From a virus: a DNA stretch of 24,341 bases. The translations under genes were made by a program, and so were the position numbers. Every line of letters begins with the position of its first letter. The first letter of the stretch is position 1. Positions 5,650-23,639 of the stretch are shown here, one piece after another. The stretch lies in the IMG/VR virus record IMGVR_UViG_3300003177_000023, positions 1 to 24,341 of that record. One strand, 5' to 3'. The notes under the pieces were generated by a model that searched no databases, was not told the DNA's origin, and worked only from the letters and a program-made list of their open reading frames with translations.

Positions 5650-5651
5650 CC

Positions 5652-5673
5652 AACTTTCGGTAAAACCAATGAG
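5652..5673 (+). repeat. Repeated translation-start segment, copy 1
   Basis: A 22-base block containing CTTTCGGTAAAACCAATGAG spans the start codon (5669) of the zinc-finger gene and is repeated exactly at 6164-6185, again across a start codon. No Shine-Dalgarno sequence is present in either copy. Confidence 0.8.
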
Positions 5674-6157: not shown

Positions 6158-6163
6158 CCAACA

Positions 6164-6185
6164 AACTTTCGGTAAAACCAATGAG
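6164..6185 (+). repeat. Repeated translation-start segment, copy 2
   Basis: Identical to 5652-5673 over 22 bases and positioned the same way relative to the ATG (here 6181). The exact conservation of non-coding plus start-codon sequence suggests recent duplication or a conserved translational control element. Confidence 0.8.
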
Positions 6186-6399
6186 CCACAACCTACTGAC
6201 AGAAGAAGAGCTGAACGAACTCACAGGCTCACCTCAGCGAAAAAAACAAATTGCGGTGCTGGTCAAACACGGCATAAACTTCATCACCCGCACCGATGGA
6301 AAAATAAAAACAACCTGGCAAGCCGTCAACTCAGTCCTGGAAAAAAGCACAGAAAAACAACAGACGACCGAGCCAGATCTAGACTTCTTGAGGCAATAG
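6181..6399 (+). CDS. DUF4224-like phage protein
   Basis: The product is 72 aa. The N-terminal pattern LLTEEELNELTGSPQRKKQI followed by VLVKHGINFITRTDGKI fits the DUF4224 family, small phage proteins commonly found near integrases and early regulators; function unknown. The ATG lies in the second copy of the repeated start block. It is the last gene of the T-poor early block before the Csf operon. Confidence 0.75.
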   Translation: MSHNLLTEEELNELTGSPQRKKQIAVLVKHGINFITRTDGKIKTTWQAVNSVLEKSTEKQQTTEPDLDFLRQ

Positions 6400-6411
6400 G
6401 ATGCGCTACAC

Positions 6412-9331: not shown

Positions 9332-9343
9332 CCAGGAGCAATA

Positions 9344-9775
9344 ATGATTTACCAATTTGAAACTGACAACCAACAGCGAGCCACTGCCGCATTAATGGTC
9401 TATGCAGTCTATAAAAGCCGTGATATATCGCGATTTAAAGTCTCTACAAAAATGTGGGAGCAAATAACTGGCTTTGTAAAGCTGGCAGCTAAGCGCTCTA
9501 TCAATTTAGCGGAATTTATTGAGTATTTTCGCAAGCCAATGAAGTGCGAAGCAATACAAGCGAAATATTGCAAAATCGACAAGTCGATCATGATGATTGA
9601 TGGGGCGCTATCTGCCGCAAGCGATACTGAAGCGCGTCAATTTTTAACATCAGAGCTAGAGCAAGCCGATCAAAAAAAGGTCATTAGCACCTTAATCAAA
9701 GAAACCGCGTTCGTCATTATGCTGGTGCGCGAGCGTCTTGAAAATGAAAAACAAACAGACAAAATACAGGACTAA
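9344..9775 (+). CDS. Small helical protein in Cas11 (small subunit) position
   Basis: The product is 143 aa and almost wholly alpha-helical (QRATAALMVYAVYKSRDISR, then KMWEQITGFVKLAAKRSINL, and ETAFVIMLVRERLENEKQ). AGGAG lies 7 bases upstream. In type IV-B and IV-C loci a helical small subunit, Cas11, precedes csf2; size, composition and position match, but the family diverges too fast for a motif call. In the complex such subunits line the belly along the crRNA-target duplex. If it is not Cas11 it would be an unknown operon member. Confidence 0.5.
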   Translation: MIYQFETDNQQRATAALMVYAVYKSRDISRFKVSTKMWEQITGFVKLAAKRSINLAEFIEYFRKPMKCEAIQAKYCKIDKSIMMIDGALSAASDTEARQFLTSELEQADQKKVISTLIKETAFVIMLVRERLENEKQTDKIQD

Positions 9776-9776
9776 C

Positions 9777-10652
9777 ATGAACTACTTATTAAGCGGTACA
9801 TTTACAACCAAAAGCCCTTTATCGCATATCAGCGAATCAATCAGCACAGGCTCTTTATTGAATGAGCGTGCAATGCTGCAAAGCAACGGTGAACTAATCG
9901 ACGTTTTTTGCTACAACGGCAACGCATGGCGTGGACAGTTGCGTGATTTAGCGGCACTGTATTTAATAGAAAAGCTAGACATTACTGAACTTAAAATAGA
10001 TATTCATAACTTTTTATTCAGCGGCGGAAAAATAGGCGGTCAATCAAAATTCAAACTGGAAAACGTGCGCAAACACTTTGAGTTGTTGCCTGCGTTTTCG
10101 TTGATGGGCGGTTGCCTTGATAACATGATGCTACCAGGCAAGTTATCAGTATTTGATGCACTGCCATTATGCCAAGAGGCTATTATTGAGCTGCCGCAGT
10201 CAGAACATACGGCAGCAGTTGAAAACAGCTATAAACGCATGGTGATTGAACGTGAATTTACACGCATGGATGACTCTAAAAATATGCAACTAAATGACAC
10301 GCTCAGTGCTGAAGATTTTGAAAATAAAGAAACGGTTCAAATGCGAATGGGCGGCGAGCTGCTTAACTCAGGCGTGGATTTGTTTACTCGTATTCTTGCG
10401 CGTGACAGCTCTTTAGTAGAGCTCGGGGCTTTGTGTTCTGCTCTAGCTAAGTTTGCTGATAACCCATTTATTGGTGGTCAGCACAATAAAGGGCATGGCA
10501 AAGTCGATATTGCGTATAGCATTAATAATCAGCACTTCTTTGCTGTCAATGACTTTGATATAAAGACTAGCGACTTGTTTACGAGTGCTTTAGCTGCTTA
10601 CGATGAGCACCTAATCGCCAACCAATCTACAATACTGGAGCTACTACAATGA
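9777..10652 (+). CDS. csf2: Csf2 (Cas7-type backbone, type IV)
   Basis: The product is 291 aa from the ATG at 9777, one base after the previous stop; an in-frame ATG at 9738 lies within the upstream gene. It shows a RAMP/Cas7 layout: an N-terminal strand LLSGTFTTKSPLSH, the conserved loop-helix NGNAWRGQLRDLAA (48-60), FSGGKIGG (81-88) and a late Gly-rich segment FIGGQHNKGHGKVDIAY (231-247). Cas7 subunits polymerise along the crRNA and flip every sixth base. An acidic residue for target RNA cleavage, as in type III Cas7, cannot be asserted. The stop overlaps csf3 (ATGA). Confidence 0.78.
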   Translation: MNYLLSGTFTTKSPLSHISESISTGSLLNERAMLQSNGELIDVFCYNGNAWRGQLRDLAALYLIEKLDITELKIDIHNFLFSGGKIGGQSKFKLENVRKHFELLPAFSLMGGCLDNMMLPGKLSVFDALPLCQEAIIELPQSEHTAAVENSYKRMVIEREFTRMDDSKNMQLNDTLSAEDFENKETVQMRMGGELLNSGVDLFTRILARDSSLVELGALCSALAKFADNPFIGGQHNKGHGKVDIAYSINNQHFFAVNDFDIKTSDLFTSALAAYDEHLIANQSTILELLQ

Positions 10653-11293
10653 AAGCACTAAAAATCACAGCTCATTTAGAGAAAGGCTTTAGTGCAAGCG
10701 ACGCATGGAGCCCATCGCTTGACTCAATTCTTGCTTATTTCTCATTAAAAAATAAACTCGGTAGCCGACAATTTAACCTTGATACGGCTATGGGCGTACA
10801 AACTACCGTCGATGATTTACCATTAGAACGCATTTGCTTTGATGAAAAATGGTGGTGGGCATGTTCCACGCCAGAATTTGACAAGCAACAAGAAATCAAT
10901 CGTGCATTTTATAAGAAATTCAATATCGACACCGCTTTAATGATTGAGCGCAAAGTAAGAAATATCGAGTTGACTAAAAACCAGTTTAAAAATTACGCAT
11001 TGATATTTAAAGAGATTATTACCGATAGTGTTAGCTGGCATGTGATAGGTGATGAGGCAAAGATTATGGCTTTATTGGCTGACTGCCAGCAGATAGGCGC
11101 AAAGCGTGGCAAAGGAATGGGGCTAGTAACAAAATGGTCAGTGAGTGCGGGTGATATGCAAAAGGCTTTATATAAGCGTGCCTTGCCTATTGAGTATGCA
11201 GAATTAAAGAAAATACAAGGGGTTAAACTGTGGCGAGGCTTTTGCCCATCATATCGACTTACTGAAAATCAGGGGCTTTGTGTGATTAATTAA
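10649..11293 (+). CDS. csf3: Csf3 (Cas5-type RAMP, type IV)
   Basis: The product is 214 aa. It opens with a ferredoxin-like RAMP strand (MKALKITAHLEKG), then AWSPSLDSILAYFSLKNKLG (19-38), a segment seen in Csf3/Cas5 proteins, and a Gly-rich loop IGAKRGKGMGLVTKWSV (149-165) followed by a strand. Cas5-type subunits cap the crRNA 5' handle next to Csf1. It is the last gene of the operon; its TAA lies in the left arm of an inverted repeat at 11290-11319. Confidence 0.75.
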   Translation: MKALKITAHLEKGFSASDAWSPSLDSILAYFSLKNKLGSRQFNLDTAMGVQTTVDDLPLERICFDEKWWWACSTPEFDKQQEINRAFYKKFNIDTALMIERKVRNIELTKNQFKNYALIFKEIITDSVSWHVIGDEAKIMALLADCQQIGAKRGKGMGLVTKWSVSAGDMQKALYKRALPIEYAELKKIQGVKLWRGFCPSYRLTENQGLCVIN

Positions 11294-11319
11294 TTGTTTT
11301 GTGTTGACAAAACAATTAA
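11290..11319. promoter_or_regulatory. 13-bp inverted repeat over a promoter
   Basis: TTAATTGTTTTGT (11290-11302) and its exact complement ACAAAACAATTAA (11307-11319) flank GTTG. It overlaps the csf3 stop and the -35 box of the next promoter. An A-run rather than a T-run follows on the plus strand, so an operator fits better than a terminator. Confidence 0.6.
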
Positions 11320-11331
11320 AAAGACTACAAT
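11304..11331 (+). promoter_or_regulatory. Sigma70-type promoter for the 11409-13108 genes
   Basis: A perfect TTGACA (11304-11309) lies 16 bases from TACAAT (11326-11331). The -35 sits inside the inverted repeat, so a dimeric repressor could block it. It gives the integrase segment a transcript independent of the Csf operon. Confidence 0.75.
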
Positions 11332-11337
11332 ACTTTA

Positions 11338-11408
11338 CCAAGAGCTTAAGAAAAGCTCTTTCGACTCAGCGATACTGAGAACCCGAAATGGAGAATTAAA
11401 AATTAAAA
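11338..11408 (+). promoter_or_regulatory. Two-hairpin 5' leader
   Basis: The predicted transcript opens with hairpin AAGAGCTT / AAGCTCTT (11340-11347, 11353-11360; 5-base loop), then CTCAG / CTGAG (11365-11369, 11375-11379) around CGATA. A GGAG lies 15 bases before the ATG. The second hairpin has the 5-bp stem and 5-base loop geometry of type I-F CRISPR repeats cut by Cas6f, but the sequence occurs only once and no array is present. A riboregulator or translation control is equally possible. Confidence 0.35.
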
Positions 11409-11606
11409 ATGAAAACTGTAAACGAATTAAAAAAAGGTGACATTTTAACAAACACAAATCATGGATTTGATATTGAAATTGTCGAAATTGGAAAAAAGAA
11501 CACTAGATATTTGAATTTAGAAACTGGCGAAAAAGTTAAAAGCTTTACAAGTAAGTTTAACTTTATGCTTAGAGAAGGCGTTTTTATTAAAAAAGAAGAA
11601 TTATGA
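11409..11606 (+). CDS. Small 65-aa protein
   Basis: The product begins MKTVNELKKGDILTNTNHGF and ends IKKEEL. It has a compact beta-rich pattern (KKGDILTN, IEIVEIGKK, RYLNLETGEKV) suggestive of a small barrel. No family is recognised. It follows the two-hairpin leader and overlaps the next gene (ATGA). Confidence 0.6.
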   Translation: MKTVNELKKGDILTNTNHGFDIEIVEIGKKNTRYLNLETGEKVKSFTSKFNFMLREGVFIKKEEL

Positions 11607-11935
11607 AAACAGCGGCACAATTCGCAAAAGAGGCTGGGCTACCCAGCCTCTTGATGGTGGCTGAATTGTCAGGGCAATCATCACAAACATTAAACAATTG
11701 GTTTAAAAATAAGCCTTTTGTATTTTATGCAGTTATAGAAAAAGCAGCCAAGGAATTTAACATGAAATTTAGAATAGACTTTAAGTATAAAGAAAATAAC
11801 AATGCTTTCAATAATTCTTGGGAGCACGGTTTTCAAATAATTAATGCTGAAAGCGAAAGCGAAGCAAAAGAAAAATTTAAAAAATTATGGACTGCTGATA
11901 GCGAGTTAGTTATAAAAACATTAGAAATAGTTTGA
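11603..11935 (+). CDS. HTH-like phage protein with extra C-terminal domain
   Basis: The product is 110 aa. The first 50 residues (AAQFAKEAGLPSLLMVAELS, then TLNNWFKNKPFVFYAVIEKA) look like a divergent helix-turn-helix of the kind seen in small phage regulators. A second segment after residue 62 (GFQIINAESESEAKEKFKKL) looks like a short alpha/beta module. Regulation of integration or of the promoter at 11304 is possible. Start overlaps the preceding stop. Confidence 0.6.
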   Translation: MKTAAQFAKEAGLPSLLMVAELSGQSSQTLNNWFKNKPFVFYAVIEKAAKEFNMKFRIDFKYKENNNAFNNSWEHGFQIINAESESEAKEKFKKLWTADSELVIKTLEIV

Positions 11936-11960
11936 CGTGACGCTAGGCAGGTAAAAACAT

Positions 11961-12152
11961 ATGAACTCGGAAAATAAAAACGGGCTATCTGGCAACCAAA
12001 ATGCTAAAAAAAAAGAAGAGGATAAAAAGCTATCATTTATTCATGCGAGATGCAGCTCTCATGATAAGGCGCTCTGGGTAAAAGAATCTCAAAGAAGAGG
12101 TGTAAAACTAACTGAATTTATAGTGAATACACTAAATAAAGAAATAAAATGA
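11961..12152 (+). CDS. Small ribbon-helix-helix-like protein, possible excision factor
   Basis: The product is 63 aa: a basic N-terminus with GLSGNQNAKKK, then FIHARCSSHDKALWVKESQR and GVKLTEFIVNTLNKE, a strand-helix-helix pattern similar to ribbon-helix-helix DNA-binding proteins. Its stop overlaps the integrase start (ATGA), so the two are translationally coupled. The position suggests an excisionase or integrase regulator; sequence alone does not prove it. Confidence 0.55.
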   Translation: MNSENKNGLSGNQNAKKKEEDKKLSFIHARCSSHDKALWVKESQRRGVKLTEFIVNTLNKEIK

Positions 12153-13108
12153 ATACAAAACTACCTGCGCGCGTATACCTAAAGCATAACGCGTATTACT
12201 ACGTAACCTTGCCAGATCGGAAATGGATACGACTAGGCAAAACAGAGTCAGAAATGTATGCCGCGCTATCAAAAATAAAAGACATCGACAGCGGAAAAGG
12301 AACAATGCTGGAGCAGTTCGAACGATACGAAAACGAAATAATACCGACCAAAGCACCCAGAACCCAACAAGACAACAAATCAGAAATAAAAAACTTAAAA
12401 AAAGCATTCGGCAAAATGCTCCCCGAAAACATAAAGCCAAAACACATCTACGCATACATGGATGCGCGCGGGCAGACATCAAAAACCAGAGCAAACAGAG
12501 AAAAATCACTACTAAGCGTAGTTTTCAGCAATATGGTTCGTTGGGGCATTGTAGAGTACAACCCATGCAAACAAGTTAAGAATTTCACCGAAAAACCCCG
12601 CGACAGATACGTAGAAGACTGGGAATATCAAGCGGTACTCTCGCTTGCATCCGCAGTTATGCACGCCGCCATGGAAATAGCAGTTATAACAGGAATGCGC
12701 CAAGGCGATATCATTAAACTAAAATACAGTGATCTAACAGACGAAGGAATTCGATTAACACAGAACAAAACAGGGAAAAAACAAATTTTTCAATGGACAG
12801 ACGATCTAAGAGCCGCGATCAAGAAATCACGCGAACAAAAACGACATGCAGAAAGCGTAATAAATATAATAGCAAACGAGCGCGGGCAAGCTTATACGTC
12901 AAATGGATTTAAAAGCAACTGGCAACGCTTAATGAACAAAGCAATAGAGACAGGCGCAATAAAAAACAGATTCACATTTCACGATTTACGAGCAAAAGCA
13001 GGCAGTGATGCGAATGGAAATGCACAAGAATTATTAGGACATGCTAACGCAGCAACAACTCGAAAAGTCTACGAAAGAAAGCCCGCAAAAGTGAAGCCAA
13101 ATCGTTAA
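12149..13108 (+). CDS. int: Phage tyrosine integrase
   Basis: The product is 319 aa. It contains an N-terminal arm-binding-like domain (residues 1-60), a SAM-like core-binding domain (about 65-145) and the catalytic domain. The catalytic set is complete: R184 (TGMRQGD), K207, H278 and R281 (FHDLRAKAG), H298 (LLGHANAATT) and Y308 (RKVYERK). It recombines attP with the tRNA-His attB by a covalent 3'-phosphotyrosine mechanism. The gene points straight at attP, 66 bases away. The plus strand here is very A-rich and T-poor, like the early genes. Confidence 0.95.
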   Translation: MNTKLPARVYLKHNAYYYVTLPDRKWIRLGKTESEMYAALSKIKDIDSGKGTMLEQFERYENEIIPTKAPRTQQDNKSEIKNLKKAFGKMLPENIKPKHIYAYMDARGQTSKTRANREKSLLSVVFSNMVRWGIVEYNPCKQVKNFTEKPRDRYVEDWEYQAVLSLASAVMHAAMEIAVITGMRQGDIIKLKYSDLTDEGIRLTQNKTGKKQIFQWTDDLRAAIKKSREQKRHAESVINIIANERGQAYTSNGFKSNWQRLMNKAIETGAIKNRFTFHDLRAKAGSDANGNAQELLGHANAATTRKVYERKPAKVKPNR

Positions 13109-13346
13109 AAAGTTAGACAAACTAAAAATAGTTAGACATTTGACTATATAGGCATTACAAGAATGTAGCAAAAATGGGGTGGACGATGGGTCTTGAACCC
13201 ACGACAACCGGAATCACAATCAGAAACCTTATTTAACTATTTTTTAGTTATTTCAGTGATTTATATAAATAGCGTCTAACTATAAGCCTTATTTTAGCCA
13301 TTATTTAATCAAAGAGTTATGTTTTTTATACGCACAAAGTTAGACA
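13109..13346. other. attP: Phage attachment site attP with integrase arm-type repeats
   Basis: The core is the tRNA-His 3' segment at 13175-13221. The 9-base motif AGTTAGACA occurs at 13111-13119, 13130-13138 and 13338-13346, and as the inverted GTCTAACT at 13274-13281. So two direct copies lie on the integrase side and two copies on the tail-gene side of the core. This is the P-core-P' layout of a lambda-type attP. In a prophage these arms would be split between attL and attR and host DNA would border the core. Confidence 0.8.
13175..13221 (-). other. 3' part of a tRNA-His gene (attP core)
   Basis: The minus strand reads from the anticodon loop (GATTGTGATTCC, anticodon GTG) through a T-arm with TTCAAGA to the acceptor end GTCCACC followed by C73 and CCA at 13175. 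C73 and the GTG anticodon identify tRNA-His. The D-arm and the 5' acceptor strand are absent, and the 5' side of the anticodon stem does not pair, so this is not a functional tRNA. Integration would rebuild the host gene's 3' end. Confidence 0.85.
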
Positions 13347-13370
13347 GATTTTAAAGCTATTTTCTATTTG

Positions 13371-13401
13371 CCTCATTCCCACGTTCTCCGTGGGAATGAG
13401 G
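13371..13401. repeat. REP-like palindrome after the last tail gene
   Basis: CCTCATTCCCACG (13371-13383) and its exact complement (13389-13401) flank TTCTC. The 13-bp stem ends 5 bases beyond the tail-gene stop and may stop minus-strand transcription although no T-run follows. Palindromes with a TTCCCACG...CGTGGGAA core are common dispersed repeats in proteobacterial genomes, so it may be host-derived. Confidence 0.7.
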
Positions 13402-13405
13402 AAGG

Positions 13406-15499
13406 TCAGATAAATATGGCTCGTGAAAGCCCATATATTCTTACGTCCATAATAGCTAGACTAGATAGAGAAACGTCTGTGGAGCCATTTATAATAAAGT
13501 CTTGACCAAGATAACCTGGGGTATGTCTACCAGCTTTAACATATGCGTTACCGTATTTATCAGATACGTAATAAGCTACCTTGTAACTCGAGTATTCGTT
13601 TGATATTTTCCATCCGAGGATGTTAGTACTTAACTGACCGCCTCCATCAGTCCTTGAAAATGCGCCATTGATTACGTCGTAATAAAATCCGTACCTCATG
13701 TCAAGAATTATCTTTTTTTCATTTATTGTATAGGGTGTAGTATCGGGTTCCACTATCACCATTCCATCCATCGTCACTGTGAGGATTGGAGAATTTATCT
13801 TAAATGGCGGAGAGGAAGAACTTAACTCTCCAGCCCACACCCAGTCATGAAACTTAAATCCAACAACTTTTCTATTTCCTACGTAATCCATAAAGTAATT
13901 ACTTTGTTCTTGAGTGAGGATAGGGGATTCTATTGCTCCAAGGGTGACAGTTTTAGCTACCATATCTATGTTAAAAGTCATGGGATAGAATTCTTCTGGC
14001 GAAACGTAATAAAATGGATCTCCGATATTGTTAGTGCCGAATCCAGAAACATGCAGGTTAAATACACCACAAGCTTCTGTAACATCTTTGTTGACTCCAA
14101 TTATTCCATTAAACTCCCCATAGTGAAATGCCGGACCAGGATGTAGGTCTCCAAGCAGTATTTCCCCTGTTTTTACGGTTGCTCTGTTTTCTACAAAAGC
14201 ATAAACTAATTTAAAGGGGGTAGAATCTACCCCTAAGGTGTTGATAAGCGGGGCTCGTGACATTAGGACTATATATCTTTTCACCCCGTTTATTACTTTC
14301 ACTGCCGCACCGTAGATGATGTTAGGGCTAGAAGCACCAAAGATGGATTTCCCTTCGTCGTATAGTATTCCTGATTGAAGTATAGTATTCCCAGAGCGGT
14401 CAGTCTGTAAAGGAGCCTCATACCTACCCCTTAAAAAGTAGGTGTCTGTAGGATTCCCCCAAGTTATATAGTTATTCCCATCAGTCCAATCAAATATCCC
14501 ACCATAAGCAGAGGTATAGTCTGGTAGACCTGGGGTGTTGATGATGCCATCATATATCTTGTGGGAGTTGGCATCAAACTTTATTACAGTGGCTTTAGGG
14601 GGTACTCCAAATACGAAGTTGGATTGAGTACAAACTCTAGGGTTATTTACAAACCCTGCTATTCTTGGGGTATCCCAGTTCCGATGAAAACTTACTACAA
14701 CTCTATCCCCAACTTTAAAAGCACTCGTACCACAATTCCCATAAAATACGGGAACATCAACCAAGTTGGGAGTTTTATTTATCACATAAGCCGCGTTATG
14801 CACGCCACGCACCGAACTTACTTCACTCTCATTCTGAAAAGTTATATTGCACGTATTATTTTTAGCGTCTATCGACGTTATCTTTCCTGCTCTGTACTCA
14901 GGTCTCCAGTATTGTTGCGCTGGTAAGGCTATCCAATTGTATACGAGGGTATATGCCCCTACTTCTCTCGCGGGGGTTAATGTGCGAGTGGTATTATGAG
15001 TGGTTGGGGAGATTAGGATAGCTTCGTTGTGCGGAGCATTCACTTCATCAGAAAGCTCAATCGTATCTACTTCTCCAGTCAGTCCCTCAGTAAATGTGAT
15101 ACACCAAGCTTCCACGGGCATTGGGTTTGCATATTTTGCTAAATCCTGATCTAAAGCCTTAAGTTCATAAAAAAGGGAGAAATATTTGGCATCAAGAGTG
15201 CGCTCTGTGCTTTTAAGATTATCAAGTTCGGTTTTTAATTCTGCTAATTGTTTTCGCAGTAATAACTCATCTTGTAAATTATGCTCCCCTGTTACTAAAT
15301 TTTGTAACTGGGTGAATTTATCTTCCACCTCTATATTTTTTAAGGTTATTTTAGCTTTAACAGAAGTTAAGTTACCATTTACTTTTGTCATTGATGCAAT
15401 GACTTCCGTTTTTCTTGCGCTTAATTGGCTTGTTTTATAAATTTCTTTTATTAGGTACTGACCTTTGCCTCTGTCATTGAGTATTAACGCTTTACCCAT
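13406..15499 (-). CDS. Large tail-tip or fibre protein
   Basis: The product is 697 aa and the last gene of the late operon. Residues about 25-125 are heptad-like and charged (QLQNLVTGEHNLQDELLLRK, then LAELKTELDNLKSTERTL), a likely trimeric coiled coil. A beta-rich central part follows, with RAGKITSIDAKNNTCNITF and VGDRVVVSFHRNWDTPRIAG resembling small barrel domains of baseplate proteins. The long remainder is beta-rich and Gly/Tyr/Asn-rich with no recognised fold. The position next to attP matches lambda side-tail-fibre genes. A receptor-binding role is inferred. It overlaps the upstream gene by 8 bases. Confidence 0.65.
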   Translation of the reverse strand: MGKALILNDRGKGQYLIKEIYKTSQLSARKTEVIASMTKVNGNLTSVKAKITLKNIEVEDKFTQLQNLVTGEHNLQDELLLRKQLAELKTELDNLKSTERTLDAKYFSLFYELKALDQDLAKYANPMPVEAWCITFTEGLTGEVDTIELSDEVNAPHNEAILISPTTHNTTRTLTPAREVGAYTLVYNWIALPAQQYWRPEYRAGKITSIDAKNNTCNITFQNESEVSSVRGVHNAAYVINKTPNLVDVPVFYGNCGTSAFKVGDRVVVSFHRNWDTPRIAGFVNNPRVCTQSNFVFGVPPKATVIKFDANSHKIYDGIINTPGLPDYTSAYGGIFDWTDGNNYITWGNPTDTYFLRGRYEAPLQTDRSGNTILQSGILYDEGKSIFGASSPNIIYGAAVKVINGVKRYIVLMSRAPLINTLGVDSTPFKLVYAFVENRATVKTGEILLGDLHPGPAFHYGEFNGIIGVNKDVTEACGVFNLHVSGFGTNNIGDPFYYVSPEEFYPMTFNIDMVAKTVTLGAIESPILTQEQSNYFMDYVGNRKVVGFKFHDWVWAGELSSSSPPFKINSPILTVTMDGMVIVEPDTTPYTINEKKIILDMRYGFYYDVINGAFSRTDGGGQLSTNILGWKISNEYSSYKVAYYVSDKYGNAYVKAGRHTPGYLGQDFIINGSTDVSLSSLAIMDVRIYGLSRAIFI

Positions 15500-17021
15500 C
15501 AGAAACCTCCATAGTCACCAATCTTTTACTAAAATTTTTTACTACTTTTGTGACTGAAACAATAAGCGTGGGACTAATTTCCACAGAGTCACCGACATTT
15601 AAACCTGCAATCGGCGTGGCTCTTACTCGCAACGATCCGCTTGCATCTGTATTTACAAAAGATATACCTGATAATTTGTATTGCGTGGGTGAATTATTTA
15701 CTGGGATTATCCCAGATAATGCCATAGTTATACTAAAATGTTTTGCCCCTTGTGAGCTGGAAAAATTTTTTACGTTAAAAGGCTCAGAGATAACTTCTTT
15801 TGTTGTTCCGTCGCTGTAGATGGTTACTTCATGAATAGTGACTAAGCCATTGGGTCGCGCACTAATACTGCTTAAAAAATTGCCCCCGTTAGGGATAGAA
15901 ATTGAAGCTGTATTTTTGTTTCCTTTTGCTATTCTTAAAGTTAATGTGTGCAAGGGTAAAATTACATCTGCAAGTCCATCTTGCGTGCCAGTTAATATTG
16001 CAGAATAGCGCAAACCAATACTGTCTGGCGAGGAATTTATAATAATCCCAAAGGACGGTAAACCACCTACAAACGAATCCGATTCACCCGTTAGATCAAT
16101 TATTATGTTATTTGGAACTCTCCCATGCAAAATAGCGTTATTAAGCAGTGGGACGGATGTATTAACCCCTTGTATAATTGTTGGAGTATTTCCTGTTCCA
16201 TGTAGGGAAAATCCAGAATTAACTTGAATTATAGGACCGAAAATAGGGGTATTAAATACTAAACTTCCTGTCCCCACTAGAGCAGTTTGGCTATTCCCAA
16301 TGGTCGAGGATGCTAAGTTACCTGTTAGTGTTAATGCTTTATGTAATGCCGTTCCAGTATAAGGCACACCCGCTTGGGTCTGCACCGCTAGGGACATTAA
16401 ATCTTGCCCCCCTGCGGCTTGGGAAAGTAGCAAGGTTTGGTTGGATAGGGTGTCCGTTGCGGAATACGCTGTTACGTAGAAGTCTGTGCTTCCCGTTATG
16501 GTTTTTCCAACAAATTCAATAAGATTACTGGTAAATCTTACTGCGACTTCTGCTATGGTCGTTCCAGGGGTTAGAGAGTCCTCTAGTATGAATAGGATTA
16601 TTGTTTCGCCGCCAGCCGTTCTAATTTGTGAGCTTGCGGCGGTTGCTGCATCCTTTCCTACTGGATGGAAAGTAAATATCACATCAGGCTGATCTGACCA
16701 ACCAATCATCTGGTTGACGTTAGGCACAGACATAAAAGCCGCAGAAGCACCTGCAGCTAAGGCAGTTTTATAGAATAGAAGTCCGCCTTCGGTGCTTATA
16801 TAATAACTGGGAGCGACTTGATTACCCCATATCGGGGTGGAAAGGGAAATAGTTTGAATACTATTATCCCCCGCCAGGCTAAACATAGTCCCAGTGGTTG
16901 ACGCTCCCACCGCTGTAACCCACGCATCATATTGAGCTTTAGGTGTTAAAGAAGAGGCGGTTACGGTGGAATTTAGGTTGGTTAAACCAGACCCTGCCCC
17001 GCTTAAATCAATAGTTGCCAT
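15492..17021 (-). CDS. Tail-associated structural protein (509 aa)
   Basis: The product starts MATIDLSGAGSGLTNLNSTV and is rich in Ser, Thr, Gly and Asn with alternating short strands, typical of phage surface or tip proteins. Residues near 30-40 (PKAQYDAWVTAVGA) are helical. The last 60 residues (GSLRVRATPIAGLNVGDSVE) resemble a small barrel. No family is named. It overlaps the fibre gene by 8 bases and starts 1 base after the preceding gene, so all are co-transcribed. No coiled coil is seen. Confidence 0.6.
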   Translation of the reverse strand: MATIDLSGAGSGLTNLNSTVTASSLTPKAQYDAWVTAVGASTTGTMFSLAGDNSIQTISLSTPIWGNQVAPSYYISTEGGLLFYKTALAAGASAAFMSVPNVNQMIGWSDQPDVIFTFHPVGKDAATAASSQIRTAGGETIILFILEDSLTPGTTIAEVAVRFTSNLIEFVGKTITGSTDFYVTAYSATDTLSNQTLLLSQAAGGQDLMSLAVQTQAGVPYTGTALHKALTLTGNLASSTIGNSQTALVGTGSLVFNTPIFGPIIQVNSGFSLHGTGNTPTIIQGVNTSVPLLNNAILHGRVPNNIIIDLTGESDSFVGGLPSFGIIINSSPDSIGLRYSAILTGTQDGLADVILPLHTLTLRIAKGNKNTASISIPNGGNFLSSISARPNGLVTIHEVTIYSDGTTKEVISEPFNVKNFSSSQGAKHFSITMALSGIIPVNNSPTQYKLSGISFVNTDASGSLRVRATPIAGLNVGDSVEISPTLIVSVTKVVKNFSKRLVTMEVSDG

Positions 17022-17022
17022 G

Positions 17023-17487
17023 CTAGGTTATGGAATACCACCCGTTTGCGGGCTGATTTATTATGAAGTTAGAATTGGTCGATGATTGAGAGGTGGTGGT
17101 GTTTGTGGTATCCAAATCCACGTACCAAAGCAGCTTATCTGTCGTACCCAGGAACGTGTTCGCCGTTACTGGCTGAACGCAGATTAGAAATTTAGCCGTT
17201 ATTGTTACATTCGCTCCAAAGTTCGCTGCCCCACTTGCAAACGAAGTTGTTCCAACAACTGAAGCAGAATCTAAAACGGGAGCAGGAACGGCAATGGGCG
17301 CACCTGCTCCTGTTGTTATAACGCCCAATAATTGCGAGGTTGTTGAATGCGTGGCAGACGGAATGTAGGTGTTATCTGCCAGAATAAACATATTGCTCCC
17401 TGCGGTTGCATCATCCCATTGTCGCCCCGCCGTTCCGAAAAGCGTTGTTTCTAATCCGTTATATTTTGTTACCACTCCAATTGCCAT
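17023..17487 (-). CDS. Small structural protein of the tail tip (154 aa)
   Basis: The product begins MAIGVVTKYNGLETTLFGTA and ends PANGWYSIT. It is Thr/Ala/Ser-rich and beta-rich, with no charged helices, as seen in phage decoration or tip proteins. It lies between the 113-aa gene (9-base gap) and the 509-aa structural gene (1-base gap). No family is recognised. Confidence 0.55.
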   Translation of the reverse strand: MAIGVVTKYNGLETTLFGTAGRQWDDATAGSNMFILADNTYIPSATHSTTSQLLGVITTGAGAPIAVPAPVLDSASVVGTTSFASGAANFGANVTITAKFLICVQPVTANTFLGTTDKLLWYVDLDTTNTTTSQSSTNSNFIINQPANGWYSIT

Positions 17488-17496
17488 ATCTTTCCC

Positions 17497-17838
17497 CTAT
17501 GTTAATTTTTTTTCTGCTAAAAATAGTAATTTTATGGGGGTCACTGCAATATCTAATTGCTTTATTCCCCCCTCGAAAACTCCTGATTTAGTGCTTATTC
17601 TGACGCGTGAATGATTTTTTATTAGCCATTCTAAAGAATCCCTTACGCCTATATCATAAATTTCTAAAGCCCATTGCCCGTCTGCTTCTGATAATCCCAA
17701 ATCAGTTATGACATTGCCGCCATCAATAGTAGCGGTGTTAGTTAGCCTTCTTGAAAGCGGTGGCAATTTGCTTGTAGAAACTTTATGTAGTTGAACGCTT
17801 CCGAGCAGGTCGAATGTTTTTGCAGTTATAGAAATCAT
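17497..17838 (-). CDS. Minor tail protein directly after the tape measure (113 aa)
   Basis: The product begins MISITAKTFDLLGSVQLHKV and contains a SEADGQWALEIYDIGVRDSL segment and a C-terminal strand. Start and tape-measure stop overlap by 4 bases. The slot and size match lambda gpM (about 109 aa) or a short distal-tail subunit, but the sequence is not close enough for a family name. Likely part of the tail tip ring. Confidence 0.55.
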   Translation of the reverse strand: MISITAKTFDLLGSVQLHKVSTSKLPPLSRRLTNTATIDGGNVITDLGLSEADGQWALEIYDIGVRDSLEWLIKNHSRVRISTKSGVFEGGIKQLDIAVTPIKLLFLAEKKLT

Positions 17839-19502
17839 GTTAAGAGTGTCATCCCTTCTGCTAATGCTTCGATACGAATATTATTTATAAGCCCTTCCAT
17901 AACGGCTTGTAATTCAGGGGCTAAGTTTCCAGCATCTATGGTCACCTGTGTGCCGCCTTGCAATCTATTTGCCTTTGCTCTCATTAAGTCTATTTCTGCA
18001 TTATTTAGGTCTGTTGCATTAGCTAAAGCTTGGTCTGCTCTATCGTTAGATAGACCTAACTGACGTTCGAATTGAAACCCAAAGGTATCCCCTTTCTTAG
18101 GTCCTGATCCAAAGATTGCCGAAACACCATCCGTGGTGGACTTAACTACGTCGGATACTGATTTAAAAGCGGCTTCTGCAACTTTTGCCGCCGCTTGTAT
18201 TTCTGCTACATCCACGGTTGCTTTAAACTTCAGTGCCTGTACTTGCTTGGCGGTGGCTAATTCAGCCATTTTTCTTTTTAACTTTCCAGCCTCTGTTATC
18301 CCTAGCCGTTGCGCTTCTGTTAGCTTTCCCGTTGCCTTGGCTTCTGCTTCTATGGCATCCTTTGTCTTAGTGGTTTGTACGCCAAATGTTTCTACCGTTT
18401 TTACCCCGTCCTTTAGTACGATTCTAAATGACTTGTGCGCCTTATCCGCTTTTTCAATTGCCGCTTTAAGGTCATAGTCTGCCTTTTTTGTTGTTTTTAC
18501 TTTTCCTGTAGTTAAATCCAATTCCAACCCAAGGTCTTTCATCCCTTTAACAACGTCGGTAGTGGTTTTTTTCCATGTTATGGATTTAGTTGCCGCGTCT
18601 GCTACCTCTTTATCATAATCCCTCACTACAGCAGGCGCTTTTCTCCAGAGCTTATCCACTTCGTCAAATACAATTTTTCCAGACTCTTGAGCCTTTTTTA
18701 AATCCTTATAATTAGTTATTGTTTTCCCAAGCTCAACGGAGGCTTGCCTAAGCTCCTCTTTTTTAGCTGCCTCTTGCTTGGTCGCAAGCTCGGATGCAGT
18801 TGTCGATGCCTTGGTTGCTTTTGTATAATCATTGTATTCCCCAATACCAATGGTTATGGCGGTCGCCACACCTGCAAGAGCTAAACCGACAGGGCCTAAA
18901 GCAAGAGCGGCTGCCCCTGCCCCTCTTGCGAGAGAAAGAAGCGAAGTGTTTGCGCCTGTACTACTCAAAACCGCCAAAGCCCCACCTACGGTGCTGAGGG
19001 TAGTGGCGATTAAATCAAGAAAGGGCAATACCTTGTTGATAGCAGACCCTATCCCTGCAACTTCCCCCACAAAATTTGCAACCCCTGTACCACTCGCTGA
19101 AGCATCTGCCAACATAGTGGCAATCCCAGTGAATAATGGCTTTAATCCCTCAATGACTCCTGCCGATGCACTTGCAAGTGACCCCATGAAATCCACAATT
19201 GCCTGAAGAATAAGTTTAAGGTCTTCGGGTTTAGTTGGATCTAAGCCATCAAACAAGCTTCCAATTTCTTTTTTTATATCCCCAAATCCAGACAATAAGT
19301 TAGTGAAGTCAATTCCTGCGAAAGCATCGGGCAGTGCTTTTGCTATTCCAGCAAACAAAGTCTCTATATCCCCACCCTGAGTGTTTAGAGCGGTAAATAA
19401 CGGATCTAATCCGCCCGCTTTAACAATATCACCAAATGCTTTTTGTATTTTTCCAACCCCAGTTACTGTATCGTTAAACCCAGGAAGGAGTTTCTCACCC
19501 AC
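17835..19502 (-). CDS. Tape measure protein, C-terminal part (frame-broken)
   Basis: This 555-codon frame opens at a GTG (MGEKLLPGFNDTV) inside the end of the N-terminal part and lies in the -1 frame relative to it. It continues smoothly as a tape measure: alternating hydrophobic stretches (VGGALAVLSSTGANTSLLSL, then LALGPVGLALAGVATAITIG) form predicted membrane segments near residues 165-215, followed by long Lys/Ala-rich helices (AKQVQALKFKATVDVAEIQA). The first ribosome binding site belongs to the N-terminal part, so this half cannot stand alone as a sensible gene. See the entry for 19463-20482. Confidence 0.75.
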   Translation of the reverse strand: MGEKLLPGFNDTVTGVGKIQKAFGDIVKAGGLDPLFTALNTQGGDIETLFAGIAKALPDAFAGIDFTNLLSGFGDIKKEIGSLFDGLDPTKPEDLKLILQAIVDFMGSLASASAGVIEGLKPLFTGIATMLADASASGTGVANFVGEVAGIGSAINKVLPFLDLIATTLSTVGGALAVLSSTGANTSLLSLARGAGAAALALGPVGLALAGVATAITIGIGEYNDYTKATKASTTASELATKQEAAKKEELRQASVELGKTITNYKDLKKAQESGKIVFDEVDKLWRKAPAVVRDYDKEVADAATKSITWKKTTTDVVKGMKDLGLELDLTTGKVKTTKKADYDLKAAIEKADKAHKSFRIVLKDGVKTVETFGVQTTKTKDAIEAEAKATGKLTEAQRLGITEAGKLKRKMAELATAKQVQALKFKATVDVAEIQAAAKVAEAAFKSVSDVVKSTTDGVSAIFGSGPKKGDTFGFQFERQLGLSNDRADQALANATDLNNAEIDLMRAKANRLQGGTQVTIDAGNLAPELQAVMEGLINNIRIEALAEGMTLLT

Positions 19503-20482
19503 CGCGAACCAGTAGCTTTTAATGCAACAGCCGTTATATCTTGGCTCTTTTTTAAGCTATCAAAAGCAATAACCATTTTACCCGCCTGGTCTACTCCTGT
19601 TATTTGAGAAGCGATAACTAATTTTTGTTTTTTATCCAACCCTTTAAATGCTTTTGCCACATCTATGAAAATCGATTTTCCGTCACGCATTTTCCCATTA
19701 ACATCTAATTGAGAAACACCAATACTATTAAGCGCATCTCCGACGGGTTTTGATTTATCGATTAACTTTAGTAGTCCCGTTTTAAGAGCATTCGCCGCTT
19801 CAGGTCCGCTCCTAAATACCTCAATTATGGGGGTAAGTAGCCCCGTCGTTTCCTCAAAGGAAAAGCCCATCTTACTTGCAATAGGGGAAATGGCTACCAT
19901 TCCGTCCGCTAAAGTAGAGAGGGAAGTGGCGTAATGATTAGACACATTATTAAGCGCTTCAATATAACGCGGAGCAGCAGAGGCTTGTGCGCCAAATCCC
20001 TTGATTGAAGCTATTAAAATCTCAGACGCTTTCCCAATATCCACATCCCCAGCAACAGTTAAATCTAAAGCCTGCTTTTCTAAAACTGCCGCGTCCTTGG
20101 CGTCAAACCCCGCTTGTTTAAAGTCTGCCATCCCGTTTAAGACAGCGGTGGCAGCAATTCCATATTTTTCTGATAATTTAATAACATTATCTGTAAATGA
20201 TGTAACTGAAGGGTCAGTAGCGTCTAATACTTTAGCCAAGTTTCCTTGCGCATCTTTAAAATCAAGTGCCTTCTGGATTGAAAAACCACCATAGGCGGCG
20301 GCTAATGCAACTAAAGCCGTTTCGGTTTTTAATAATGATCCAGCAAGAGTATCTAAGGGCTGAGTAACATCGGATACTTGATTATTTAAAGAATGTAAAT
20401 TTCTGCCAATTCCCGTAATAACTCGACTCGTATTATCCGTTGCACCAAAGATTATTTCTATCGTTTCCGAAATACTAGCCAT
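19463..20482 (-). CDS. Tape measure protein, N-terminal part (frame-broken)
   Basis: The product is 339 aa. It starts MASISETIEIIFGATDNTSR and contains the PhageMin_Tail-type core: ALDFKDAQGNLAKVL (residues about 70-85) and KYGIAATAVLNGMADFKQAG (about 105-125), with GFGAQASAAPRYIEALNN later. The natural reading near the end would be KATGS-AVGEKLLPG, but the frame goes to RWVRNSFLGLTIQ and stops. Joining both halves gives about 880 aa, which would specify a tail of about 130 nm at 1.5 A per residue. AGAAAGGGGTAG precedes the ATG, which overlaps the end of the gpGT frame. Confidence 0.8.
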   Translation of the reverse strand: MASISETIEIIFGATDNTSRVITGIGRNLHSLNNQVSDVTQPLDTLAGSLLKTETALVALAAAYGGFSIQKALDFKDAQGNLAKVLDATDPSVTSFTDNVIKLSEKYGIAATAVLNGMADFKQAGFDAKDAAVLEKQALDLTVAGDVDIGKASEILIASIKGFGAQASAAPRYIEALNNVSNHYATSLSTLADGMVAISPIASKMGFSFEETTGLLTPIIEVFRSGPEAANALKTGLLKLIDKSKPVGDALNSIGVSQLDVNGKMRDGKSIFIDVAKAFKGLDKKQKLVIASQITGVDQAGKMVIAFDSLKKSQDITAVALKATGSRWVRNSFLGLTIQ

Positions 20483-21073
20483 TATCTACCCCTTTCTCTA
20501 AATAATACTTTTCCCATAGAATTAATTCCGTGGTGGTGATTTCCCCCTCTGGGAAAAGAGAGGGCTTTACTTGAAACAAAAATTGGTTTCTTGCTTCGCA
20601 TAAAGCCATAATCCCTGCTATGCCTGGATATTCCCAGAGGGATCTGGCTTTTTTACAGCAATTTCCATCCCCAACCCTGTTAAAGCAGTGATTTTATTGG
20701 TTAATAAATAAAATTCTATTGGGTAACACTCGGCAAATTTAACGGCTGTGTGCTGATCAATCTCAGGAGTTAAAGAACAAACCACTAATTGGTTTATTCG
20801 CTTAACAAGATCGAAAGGGACATTCGTCCCTGTGCCTAACACCTCACGCAACTCTGCGGTTACTTCTTGAGAATTACCCAATGCTTCTACTATTTGAGAA
20901 AGCGATTGCTGAGTAGTTTCAAGGTCTAACATACGAGCTAACTCTTCCCCTGTTTGCCCTCTAATACGCCAAAGCGGTTCACCCTCAAAAAAGGAAGCTA
21001 GAGATGGTACTTTAACCTCCTCAATTCGTTGTTTAAATTCCTGCTTAAGAAATGCCGTTTTATTAAATGCCAT
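20475..21073 (-). CDS. Tail assembly chaperone gpGT fusion by -1 frameshift
   Basis: If ribosomes slip -1 at the slippery site (20654-20648), reading changes after K142 from PDPSGNIQA to ARSLWEYPGIAGIMALCEAR and on to LILWEKYYLEKGVDNG, giving a fusion of about 199 aa. The extension has no independent start and fills the gap between gpG and the tape measure gene exactly, ending 8 bases inside the tape-measure start. In lambda gpGT is made at a low rate and recruits the tail tube to the tape measure. Confidence 0.75.
20618..21073 (-). CDS. Tail assembly chaperone gpG-like
   Basis: The product is 151 aa, starting MAFNKTAFLKQEFKQRIEEV. It is helical, with GEPLWRIRGQTGEELARMLD (residues 31-50) and a hydrophobic LLTNKITALTGLGMEIAV end. 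Size, place between the major tail protein and the tape measure, and the frameshifted extension identify it as a gpG-type chaperone that keeps the tape measure soluble until tube polymerisation. Its ATG overlaps the last base of the tail-tube gene. Confidence 0.8.
   Translation of the reverse strand: MAFNKTAFLKQEFKQRIEEVKVPSLASFFEGEPLWRIRGQTGEELARMLDLETTQQSLSQIVEALGNSQEVTAELREVLGTGTNVPFDLVKRINQLVVCSLTPEIDQHTAVKFAECYPIEFYLLTNKITALTGLGMEIAVKKPDPSGNIQA
20648..20654 (-). promoter_or_regulatory. Slippery heptamer A-AAA-AAG
   Basis: In the gpG frame the codons are GTA AAA AAG, so the phased heptamer A AAA AAG is the same as in E. coli dnaX. A -1 slip fuses gpG to the T-like frame. The downstream CCAGATCCCTCTGGGA could form a stimulatory stem (CCAGA/TCTGG). 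Confidence 0.8.
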
Positions 21074-21996
21074 TAACTTGCTCTATCAATAGATTCTACT
21101 TCGGGTGAAATGGTGCACGAAACACTAGGATTATTTGCCGCACCAAAAGTACGTCCAATGCCTAATTTTCCTTGGGTTAAAATATGCGGCAATTTGTTCC
21201 GATCTTGATAATATTTAAACCACAAAGTTTCCCCTTTTTTACCGATTAAGTTATCAGTAATCCCGTCTTTTAACACCGCTGTAAAAGACCCTTGCCCTAA
21301 TGATGAGCTGGATGCGCCTATTGTTGCACCGTAAACCTGTGTGGAACTGGTTGAAAATGAGGTTTCTGCTGGTACAAAATCATTAGCAAACGTTTGTTCT
21401 AAGAAAATAGGGTCACCATAGGACGCATAAACTCCTTTAGTATTTCCGCCTGTGTGAATGGCAGGCAGTGCAGTAGAAAAATGTATTTCGGCTGTTTCAT
21501 TAGCAACTGTAAAAACGGGAAAATCTGAGCGTTCAACATGAGTTCCGATAATAGTAAATATTTCCTGCTGTGAAATTACTGCCGCAGCACTACTAGCTAA
21601 TCTTACTTGACCAATTTCAATGGATGAAACTGGGATAAAAGGCGGTCCTCCTGCTGCACCCCGTGTTTCGGAAAATGTAGTAGAAGCCCCAGCAGTTCCC
21701 GTAATAAGAGCAATCGCACCTAAGGAAGTTACCGTAATAGAGATAACGCTTGCTACATTGGTTGCAGGTCGAGTTATTGAGGTATCAACGGAAGCGGAAA
21801 CTACAATATCAGTTCCTGCGATGGAAGCAGTTAAGGCTGCAATGTCAATCGAGTTATTAGCCCCTGATACCGATGGCAGTATCGCCCGCACGGCTGAAGA
21901 GGTAAAAGTTAAATGGTCGCCACTGTCTGTCAGTGCGCCCATAGGGTAAAAAGTAACCCCTGTTTCATATTCTAAAAGTGAGTTTTCATTAGACAT
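21073..21996 (-). CDS. Major tail tube protein (gpV-like)
   Basis: The product is 307 aa, beginning MSNENSLLEYETGVTFYPMG. It is Ser/Thr/Ala-rich and beta-rich throughout, with DPIFLEQTFANDFVPAETSF and IGKKGETLWFKYYQDRNKLP in the C-terminal third and an end that resembles a tail-tube (VSCTISPEVESIDRAS). In siphophages the major tail protein lies between the terminator and the chaperone genes, as here. It would form the hexameric tube around the tape measure. A tube protein of this length probably carries an added surface domain (about residues 30-120). Confidence 0.75.
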   Translation of the reverse strand: MSNENSLLEYETGVTFYPMGALTDSGDHLTFTSSAVRAILPSVSGANNSIDIAALTASIAGTDIVVSASVDTSITRPATNVASVISITVTSLGAIALITGTAGASTTFSETRGAAGGPPFIPVSSIEIGQVRLASSAAAVISQQEIFTIIGTHVERSDFPVFTVANETAEIHFSTALPAIHTGGNTKGVYASYGDPIFLEQTFANDFVPAETSFSTSSTQVYGATIGASSSSLGQGSFTAVLKDGITDNLIGKKGETLWFKYYQDRNKLPHILTQGKLGIGRTFGAANNPSVSCTISPEVESIDRAS

Positions 21997-22013
21997 ACTG
22001 TCTCCTTATTGTG

Positions 22014-22448
22014 TTAATTGACAGCAACGAACGGATCGCCGTGCTGAGTTGCATAAAAAATAGTAAAAATAACCACCAGCGAAATAATGCCACTGCCCTC
22101 AGCTGGATAAGTAGGGGTTGCTGATACATAGTCCATTCTGTTCGCCAAGCCACCAAAGCTGCTATCGTTTGCCATAATGGTTTTAATAACTTCCCCAATG
22201 ACCGCATTGGCTTCCGTGCTTGCGTGACTGATTACGTTAAACTGCATATCCAACGCAATCGGAAAGCTACACTTCTGCATCCCAAAAGCTTGCTCTTCTG
22301 CCGTATCTTCGCCATCCCAGATAGATACATTTCTAACAAAAGCATCATTAACATGTGCGCGTTTCGTGCGCTCTACCGTGTCTGATGATAAGCTTTGCGC
22401 TCGTGCAGTGAATGCTTTAATAATTTGCTCTCTAATTGTGTCAGCCAT
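22014..22448 (-). CDS. Tail terminator-like protein (gpU position)
   Basis: The product is 144 aa: MADTIREQIIKAFTARAQSL at the start, a middle DMQFNVISHASTEANAVIGE and a C-terminal strand SGIISLVVIFTIFYATQHGD that matches the ending of gpU-like and minor tail completion proteins (conserved Y-x-T-x-x-x-D/N-P). Position before the tube gene supports a tail terminator that caps the tube. It overlaps the gpZ-like gene by 8 bases. Confidence 0.65.
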   Translation of the reverse strand: MADTIREQIIKAFTARAQSLSSDTVERTKRAHVNDAFVRNVSIWDGEDTAEEQAFGMQKCSFPIALDMQFNVISHASTEANAVIGEVIKTIMANDSSFGGLANRMDYVSATPTYPAEGSGIISLVVIFTIFYATQHGDPFVAVN

Positions 22449-23013
22449 TGCGCCTACTCAATATAAAATTAACTTGTGCGTGCAGTTCGCTTAATAAACG
22501 ATCTGCCGATGTCGTTTGTACTTGCTGTGACAGCCCTGGGGTTTTTTCGTAAATCGTAGTTATAGATGGTCCGAACATTTCTTCGATGGGCAATCTTGGC
22601 GAATAAACACCAGGTGATATTTTTGATCGCTTAAAAATGCCTGTATGCCCGCTGTGTATTGTTGCGTAAAAATGGTGACGGAACTTTACTCCCTGCTCCG
22701 CTTTCCATATTTTTACAGAAACTCCTTTTGCTAGTTTTCGATTAGCAAATAAAATCGCGGGCATTGAAGCCCCTCTGAGAGTGATTTTTGCACTCAGTCT
22801 ATCGTTACTTGCTTTTCTGATTGAGATGTACTCTTTAATCTTTTTGGATTTCAGCGTAACCGTCTTGCCCACTTCTTTTGCTACCAGTGTTTTTGCAGCC
22901 GCCGCTGTTTTATTAATTGAACGTCTTAGTGCTGTTTTAGTATCGCGCTGAATACCATTTAATAGCGCATTCACACTAGCTAATTGCGCCTGATTAATTG
23001 TAATTGTTGTCAT
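22441..23013 (-). CDS. Minor tail protein Z-like (tail completion)
   Basis: The product is 190 aa. A basic helical N-terminus (LLNGIQRDTKTALRRSINKT, then KTLVAKEVGKTV) leads to the segment KISPGVYSPRLPIEEMFGPS, which is the signature of lambda gpZ-family proteins (R-L-P-I-x-E-x-x-G-P-S). gpZ joins the tail to the head in lambda. The TGA overlaps the next start, and its ATG overlaps the preceding gene by 4 bases. Confidence 0.8.
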   Translation of the reverse strand: MTTITINQAQLASVNALLNGIQRDTKTALRRSINKTAAAAKTLVAKEVGKTVTLKSKKIKEYISIRKASNDRLSAKITLRGASMPAILFANRKLAKGVSVKIWKAEQGVKFRHHFYATIHSGHTGIFKRSKISPGVYSPRLPIEEMFGPSITTIYEKTPGLSQQVQTTSADRLLSELHAQVNFILSRRNG

Positions 23014-23312
23014 GATTTAACCACCACACGCACATAATGACCATCATCAAATAAAACGCTTTCAACGACAAAAGATTGTTTATTAAACATAATTCTGTCC
23101 CCCTTTACTGGGTAATGCGTAATGCTTTTTAATAAAAATTCCACTTCTTTGCGATATTCGATCGTATAGCCATCTAGCCCTACATCCTGCACCAACTGAT
23201 CAACCACCGCTTTAATCTGTATTGATCCGCCCGATTGATAAATATAAGTAATATCATCACCCAAGCCAGTCATTAACGCGTCGTCTGAAAACATATCCAA
23301 AAAACTAGACAT
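23010..23312 (-). CDS. Head-tail joining protein (gpFII-like)
   Basis: The product is 100 aa: MSSFLDMFSDDALMTGLGDD, then IKAVVDQL and a C-terminal barrel with PVKGDRIMFNKQSFVVESVL and DDGHYVRVVVK. This two-part shape (short helix plus beta barrel ending in V-V-V) is that of lambda gpFII-type stopper proteins. It starts on the base adjoining the previous stop. Confidence 0.65.
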   Translation of the reverse strand: MSSFLDMFSDDALMTGLGDDITYIYQSGGSIQIKAVVDQLVQDVGLDGYTIEYRKEVEFLLKSITHYPVKGDRIMFNKQSFVVESVLFDDGHYVRVVVKS

Positions 23313-23639
23313 TTAGGAAATTGTCCCTTTTTCAATGCTTAATGTAACAAACCATGTTGTTTTTCCATTATCATTCACCTGTATTTCCAGCAAAGCCGAG
23401 CCGTATTCAGTGATAAGCGCTGTATCTGCGCTACTAAAAACAACCACCACTAATGAATTAGCCCAATCAGCCCCCACAGTGGTACTAGCGCAAACAACTG
23501 GGTTAATTAAAGTTCTCGCTCTATCTTCACTAATTAACGCTGCTTTTACGACCGCAGCTGTATTAATCGAGAATGCCGTATTATCTTTTTTTAATGAAAC
23601 TGGAAGCGTTACATCATCACCCGTTACAATCACCGACAT
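23313..23639 (-). CDS. Structural protein of the connector region (108 aa)
   Basis: The product begins MSVIVTGDDVTLPVSLKKDN and is an all-beta domain with SSADTALITEYGSALLEIQV and ending TWFVTLSIEKGTIS. It resembles the Ig-like or BppU-type N-terminal domains of phage structural proteins but is not assigned to a family. The start overlaps the previous gene by 10 bases, and the stop abuts the gpFII-like gene. Confidence 0.55.
   Translation of the reverse strand: MSVIVTGDDVTLPVSLKKDNTAFSINTAAVVKAALISEDRARTLINPVVCASTTVGADWANSLVVVVFSSADTALITEYGSALLEIQVNDNGKTTWFVTLSIEKGTIS

Follow-up and report, generated by a model that had tools for sequence, protein, structure and literature searches.

A probable attP with paired arm sites around a tRNA-His core in a viral contig carrying type IV CRISPR-Cas-like genes

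Very probably, a temperate, siphovirus-like phage has its attP at positions 13109-13346 of the IMG/VR record IMGVR_UViG_3300003177_000023, and non-integrated copies, namely virion DNA, an excised circle or replicating DNA, are the most likely source of the contig. The record is linear and was analysed at its whole length of 24,341 bases (hereafter the window). A first-pass annotation had argued that an intact attP shows the window to be the free phage genome. The premise holds, in that the junction is an attP; the step from attP to a free genome does not, since the same junction would also arise in a tandem of identical prophages.

Results

Four putative arm sites surround the 3' part of a tRNA-His

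Exactly three copies of the 9-mer AGTTAGACA are present in the window, starting at 13111, 13130 and 13338, always on the plus strand and never outside 13111-13346; none of 100 shuffled sequences reached this number. The 8-mer AGTTAGAC occurs four times, the fourth copy being inverted at 13274-13281; at least four copies were likewise found in 0 of 100 shuffles. By this repeat search, two arm sites lie on the integrase side of the core: P1 (13111..13119, plus strand) and P2 (13130..13138, plus strand), both AGTTAGACA, form a direct pair 19 nt apart just past the integrase stop codon (13108), and relatives carry the same pair at the same distance. The other two lie on the tail side, where P'1 (13273..13281, minus strand), an inverted AGTTAGACG agreeing at 8 of 9 positions, and P'2 (13338..13346, plus strand), again AGTTAGACA, form an inverted-plus-direct pair 64 nt apart. 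An inverted counterpart of P'1 is found on the same side of the core in the relatives L134 and L146. The annotation had therefore placed the arm sites correctly on both sides of the tRNA-His 3' core, while its "four 9-base repeats" amount to three exact copies and one inverted copy that differs at the ninth base.

The core itself (13175..13221, minus strand) reads in reverse complement as the 3' part of a tRNA-His; its 47 nt run from the anticodon loop, with anticodon GTG, to an encoded CCA, the acceptor end pointing towards int. It differs by 3 mismatches from the complete tRNA-His of the Methylococcaceae metagenome-assembled genome (MAG) G023. An Rfam search of 12900-13600 gave no match, which we take to be expected for a partial tRNA. 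The exact 47-mer had 0 matches in viral contigs, and with up to one mismatch allowed it had none in 311 genomes of the order of G023 and 63 of the order of G024. The search for a host tRNA-His gene with the same 47 bases, which the annotation had proposed as a check, thus found no exact copy in 374 genomes of two orders.

These features support the assignment of 13109-13346 as an attP of the tyrosine-integrase, tRNA-targeting kind, with predicted binding of the arms. The N-terminal domain of Int would bind the four sites P1, P2, P'1 and P'2, and its catalytic domain would exchange strands with the host tRNA-His in the anticodon-loop part of the 47-nt core. After integration, a restored, complete tRNA-His would adjoin P1-P2 and int at attL, and a 3' tRNA fragment would adjoin P'1-P'2 and the tail end at attR.

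Between attP and the tail gene lies a 13-bp perfect palindrome with a 5-nt loop (13371..13401), which as far as is known is not part of attP. It was not among the predictions of a terminator scan, which gave one weak match elsewhere. Near matches to it number nine in the Methylobacter genome G025 and two in G024, with none in the five others searched besides the record itself. The palindrome looks like a host-type dispersed element carried by the phage, and may be a hint at the host.

Phage genes adjoin attP on both sides

The gene left of attP encodes a tyrosine integrase of 319 aa (12149..13108, plus strand; PF00589, 1.7e-16; PHROG integrase, 7e-46). The PF00589 match spans residues 168-311, and TGMR, HDLR, LGH and Tyr motifs were recognised by eye. 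Full-length relatives with 75% identity lie at tRNA-His in G023 and G215. Further left is a gene for an excisionase-like protein of 72 aa (6181..6399, plus strand; phrog_1266 excisionase, 6.6e-21), a homologue of which lies just upstream of int in L094, L004 and L005. The far left of the window holds an O-like replication initiation gene cut by the contig end (2-367, minus strand; phrog_8540, 1.8e-33), an SSB gene (516-932, minus strand; phrog_44, 2.5e-52) and a cro-like gene (1522-1722, minus strand) divergent from a repressor-like gene (1801-2214, plus strand), both of the latter matching PHROG transcriptional repressors. Directly after the repressor gene, 2217-2921 encodes a protein with a HipA-like kinase domain (PF20613, 8e-9), which is followed by a phrog_21150 protein whose function is not assigned by profile; the pair spans 2217-3762 and is a possible toxin or defence pair, judged from sequence.

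On the other side, convergent with int, a gene for a protein of 697 aa (13406..15499, minus strand) had no match among the PHROGs, and its one Pfam match stayed below the threshold. We call it a probable tail fibre or tip protein because of its place after the tape-measure gene and its 22-27% identity to the downstream tail gene in other phages with this tail module. The tail and neck genes follow on the minus strand (15492..23639; PHROGs), with homologues in the same order in L067-L089. They include a split tape measure (17835-20482), a tail tube-like gene (21073-21996, named from its position), and tail terminator, Neck1 and head closure genes. From one pattern hit, no viral contig yielded a relative of the 697-aa tail gene, although the tail-module loci fetched with the tube-like protein contain distant homologues. 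The tube-like protein itself was seen in 0 of 10 records carrying relatives of the integrase or csf2, so no second record was found with both the left and the right modules of the window. Phage genes on both outer sides of attP, as the annotation had it, are therefore confirmed, namely the integrase on the left (Pfam, PHROG) and the probable tail fibre or tip gene on the right. So is the lambda-like order tail fibre-attP-int, which the related record G009 and the isolated phages mEp390 and Fostie also show.

The record is a fragment. Its left end falls in the O-like gene and its right end lies beyond the neck genes; the two ends share no exact repeat of 15 to 200 bases, and in a fragment a linear state without terminal repeats does not refute a free state. 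Pfam and PHROG searches named no terminase, head or holin gene in it, and it does not hold the full gene complement of a free phage (terminase, head, lysis). At the right contig end, 23890-24339 is a repetitive reading frame with repeated STLSEVIQNIALTQGQLLGINN-like units, which may have caused the assembly to stop there. No host gene was recognised in the window, where genes are phage-type, cargo or unnamed, and ARAGORN found no complete tRNA in its 24,341 bases. By tetranucleotide composition, none of 88 other segments (at most 0.554) comes as near to the right half as the left half does (0.656); seen from the left half, however, 12 of the 88 rank ahead of the right half. Composition thus fits a single genome, but the result is mixed, not decisive and no proof.

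Integrated relatives carry the arm sites apart

The relatives in chromosomes served as controls, the nearest of them belonging to the order of the Methylococcaceae MAG G023. In G023 itself (L094/L133), the 75%-identical integrase is followed by two AGTTAGACA copies at a spacing of 19 nt; complete tRNA-His, tRNA-Arg and tRNA-Pro genes come next, and beyond them the genes read by eye as host. Another contig of the same MAG (L134) lacks both an integrase and a complete tRNA, and carries a 3' tRNA fragment with an inverted site at +93 and a direct site at +158 behind it. When these two half-sites are joined, the product aligns with 13109-13346 along all four sites and the core. The arms are split as in G023 in two further genomes: in the 4.97-Mb contig of G215, the 75%-identical integrase and its repeat pair abut complete tRNA-His, tRNA-Arg and tRNA-Pro genes, and in G068 the arms are parted, one P' site having been matched by pattern. 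Since the arms are parted in the integrated relatives and together here, 13109-13346 is neither attL nor attR. Moreover, with the acceptor end of the core facing int, this is the junction where integration would re-create a complete tRNA; the close chromosomal relatives have such a tRNA beside int, and the window does not. Sequence comparison thus supports reading the junction as attP.

An attP-like junction may nevertheless lie in a chromosome, and "free phage genome" was an overstatement for a linear 24-kb fragment: chromosomal junctions without a complete tRNA do occur (L099, L132, L146). We consider it unlikely, though worth weighing, that the window comes from a chromosomal tandem of the same phage, or of phages of the same specificity, whose middle junction would be identical to attP. 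The 24,341-base record would be compatible with such a tandem; tandem elements at tRNA-His exist in G215, and tandem prophages, described as an unusual find, are reported for three M. abscessus strains (PMC9934374). It would, however, need a special arrangement, the record contains neither a complete tRNA nor a recognisable host gene, and the G215 tandem consists of different elements with unlike arms.

The G215 tandem is an instructive locus in its own right. At C1:4,697,318-4,888,430 (L143, L146, L147), two elements with different integrases and different repeats share one tRNA-His gene. Core copies at 4,697,318, 4,852,622 and 4,888,384 bound an element of 155 kb, with an integrase of the 12149-13108 type, and directly behind it an element of 35.8 kb with another integrase, so that the far junction of the former abuts a second element, unlike in G023. 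At the middle junction, TTTCCCACCA repeats stand on the integrase side (integrase 31% identical) and AGTTAGACA-type repeats on the other. A junction between different elements can therefore be recognised by its unlike arms.

This bears on a second kind of tandem, in which the tail block would belong to a different prophage integrated next door. Such mixed arrays are real, as the 155-kb and 35.8-kb elements of G215 with their different integrases show, and L099 reads by eye as int, core and a second integrase. Nevertheless, unlike arms are expected at a mixed junction (judging from G215, the one tandem examined in detail), whereas the arms at 13109-13346 are alike and keep the conserved geometry. 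In G009, a tRNA-His attP also has a homologous tail module as its native neighbour; this element brings an integrase of its own (33% identity), a tRNA-His core flanked on either side by its own repeats, and a homologue of the tail gene. We regard this alternative, which the annotation had raised as the counter-case to its own reading, as highly improbable. Equally improbable is an assembly chimera joining integrase-side and tail-side pieces of different molecules at the core. The tRNA-His core is used by many elements and offers a short-read assembler a plausible place for a false join; a chimera would, however, have unlike arms, except where a single phage type had supplied both pieces, and here the arms match and the geometry is kept. 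An attP of one phage remains our preferred reading.

Two other sets of relatives are recorded here as observations. L132/L145 (Methylobacter KS41) is a decayed locus with a broken integrase, a single arm site and part of a tRNA-His; the complete tRNA-His lies about 81 kb away and has another integrase beside it. The integrase relatives L003 (57%) and L004 (62%) have arm sites and no recognisable tRNA in the core; perhaps they combine the same arms with another target.

Arm geometry recurs among relatives, and repeats covary with the integrase N-terminus

The survey set comprised 82 distinct integrase loci, each with a match reaching Int residue 300 and at least 300 nt downstream, identical downstream sequences being counted once. 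A direct pair 18-22 nt apart was present in 36 of them, compared with 303 of 8200 shuffles that keep base composition only. The full four-site geometry, defined as this direct pair plus an inverted-plus-direct pair 45-75 nt apart, was present in 12 of the 82 loci, 13109-13346 included, and in 0 of 8200 such shuffles; the rule is post hoc, having been set after the first relatives, so that L004-L007, L053 and 13109-13346 are not independent of it. The other six loci (L008, L014, L016, L031, L057 and L125) were not used to set the rule, although L008, L014 and L125 had been partly inspected before. The rule failed to pick up the L146 integrase as well as L003, whose sites can be seen by eye. Among these loci, picked by hand from the survey, a complete tRNA within 420 nt of int was found in 0 of 12 four-site loci versus 15 of 24 pair-only loci (Fisher p 2.6e-4).

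The repeat sequence varies from locus to locus (AGTTAGACA, TTTATTAGGCA, AATAGCGCA, ATAGTACAA), and spacing and orientation are constant. We asked how repeat similarity relates to the integrase. The covariation set comprised 34 of the 36 loci, L044 being left aside for its low-complexity pair and L136 for its near identity to L094, and the final comparison used the 27 loci with a nearly complete Int N-terminus. Repeat similarity tracked the identity of Int residues 1-55 after correction for the catalytic domain (partial r 0.42, n=27), a value reached in 0 of 500 permutations; the reverse partial correlation was 0.06. This covariation is what arm binding by the N-terminal domain would predict.

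Against this background, it is extremely improbable that 13109-13346 is no attachment site at all and merely holds chance repeats beside a decayed tRNA remnant. Decayed junctions do exist, as in L132/L145, but the repeat statistics, the intact integrase, the split arms in relatives and the covariation with the Int N-terminus all stand against chance.

Taking the loci together, it is quite possible, though we would stop short of calling it probable, that attP in this integrase clade follows a fixed grammar (a direct pair 19-20 nt apart, the core, then an inverted site followed, mostly after about 60-66 nt, by a direct one) in which the repeat is rewritten as an address label in step with the Int N-terminus, allowing unrelated elements to stack on one tRNA gene without cross-recombination, as in G215. 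If so, matching, missing or unlike labels flanking the core would reveal on one contig whether it is free, singly integrated or part of a mixed array.

Comparison with known attachment sites

In lambda, the tail-fibre genes lie on the other side of attP and the P' sites are in tandem. As in the window, the lambda int gene adjoins an attP composed of arm sites and a core; unlike lambda, the core here is a tRNA 3' end, and the P' side is inverted plus direct with a distance of 64 nt. Lambda Int has an N-terminal arm-binding and a C-terminal core-binding domain, according to the relevant part of PMC2951348. A closer precedent is the attP of Cluster J mycobacteriophages at tRNA-Leu, for which the attP passages of PMC3706429 describe a 44-bp tRNA core about 100 bp after int and, as here, paired putative arm sites flanking the core to left and right. 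Those pairs are 10-bp direct repeats with another consensus, unlike here, and the N-terminal domains showed no systematic association with the sites in that study (PMC3706429).

The Enterobacteria phages mEp390 and Fostie, whose records are labelled complete genomes, share with the window the order excisionase-integrase-(attP)-tail fibre, with integrase identities of 40% and 35%, respectively. They differ in a core that reads by eye as tRNA-Leu-like, in other repeats and in small genes between attP and the tail fibre. Of six annotated phage records, only mEp390 passes the four-site rule, with an 18-nt pair, and Fostie fails it; the partial record 606R7 has a complete tRNA-Ser after int and looks integrated. 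The elements of G023 (L133, L134) and G215 share P1/P2, the P' sites and the targeted gene with the window, but are integrated (155 kb long in G215), and no tail gene of the window's type was found near their ends. The Thiotrichaceae MAG locus L118 (L053 in IMG/VR) resembles the window in its Int C-terminus (85%), its four sites, its tRNA-His core and, by eye, a structural-looking gene next on the other side; its tail genes gave no match to those of the window. The attP is thus a new example of a well-known arrangement, paired arm sites around a tRNA core having already been described. What is possibly worth keeping is the fixed geometry with changing repeats, by which free, integrated and mixed states could be told apart on a single contig.

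A type IV CRISPR-Cas-like gene set lies between the excisionase-like gene and int

The interval 6412-11293 holds homologues of Csf1/Cas8 (6412-7149), Cas11 (9344-9775), Csf2/Cas7 (9738-10652) and Csf3/Cas5 (10649-11293), together with a Cas6f/Csy4 gene (8849-9331; Pfam, 2e-15), a weakly matching queuine-transglycosylase-like gene (8157-8852; TGT/DpdA-like) and a protein without an assigned family (7261-8187). Profile searches of the set named no dinG or cas10, tblastn found no cysH, and 3700-12200 contained no CRISPR array. By the definitions in the part of PMC8175902 used here, the set fits none of IV-A, IV-B and IV-C. From its gene content it resembles an IV-B-like core with Cas6 added, and the place of CysH in relatives is taken here by the transglycosylase-like gene.

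That some phages and prophages carry type IV systems has been described before (PMC11656645). The viral contigs L090-L093 are phage-borne loci related to 6412-11293, and all four have Cas11, Csf2 and Csf1 as well as an extra match of 171-191 residues to the L093 protein 10954-11529, which is absent from the window. Csf3 and a CysH-like gene are found in L091-L093 and were not seen in L090, a shorter locus; the L093 protein 12557-13255 appears CysH-like by our own reading, with no profile match. Neither the Cas6 nor the TGT-like protein of 6412-11293 had a match in L090-L093.

Discussion

The usual argument for a free phage, that no host DNA adjoins the core, cannot separate an attP from a mixed tandem junction. 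The matched-arm test does separate a true attP from such a junction, and it works on a single metagenomic contig. The co-evolution of arm sites with the Int N-terminal domain is in turn a testable claim. For the phage itself, the result means that the genes left and right of 13109-13346 are likely those of a single temperate phage rather than of a host island, and it argues that the type IV CRISPR-Cas-like set travels on a phage.
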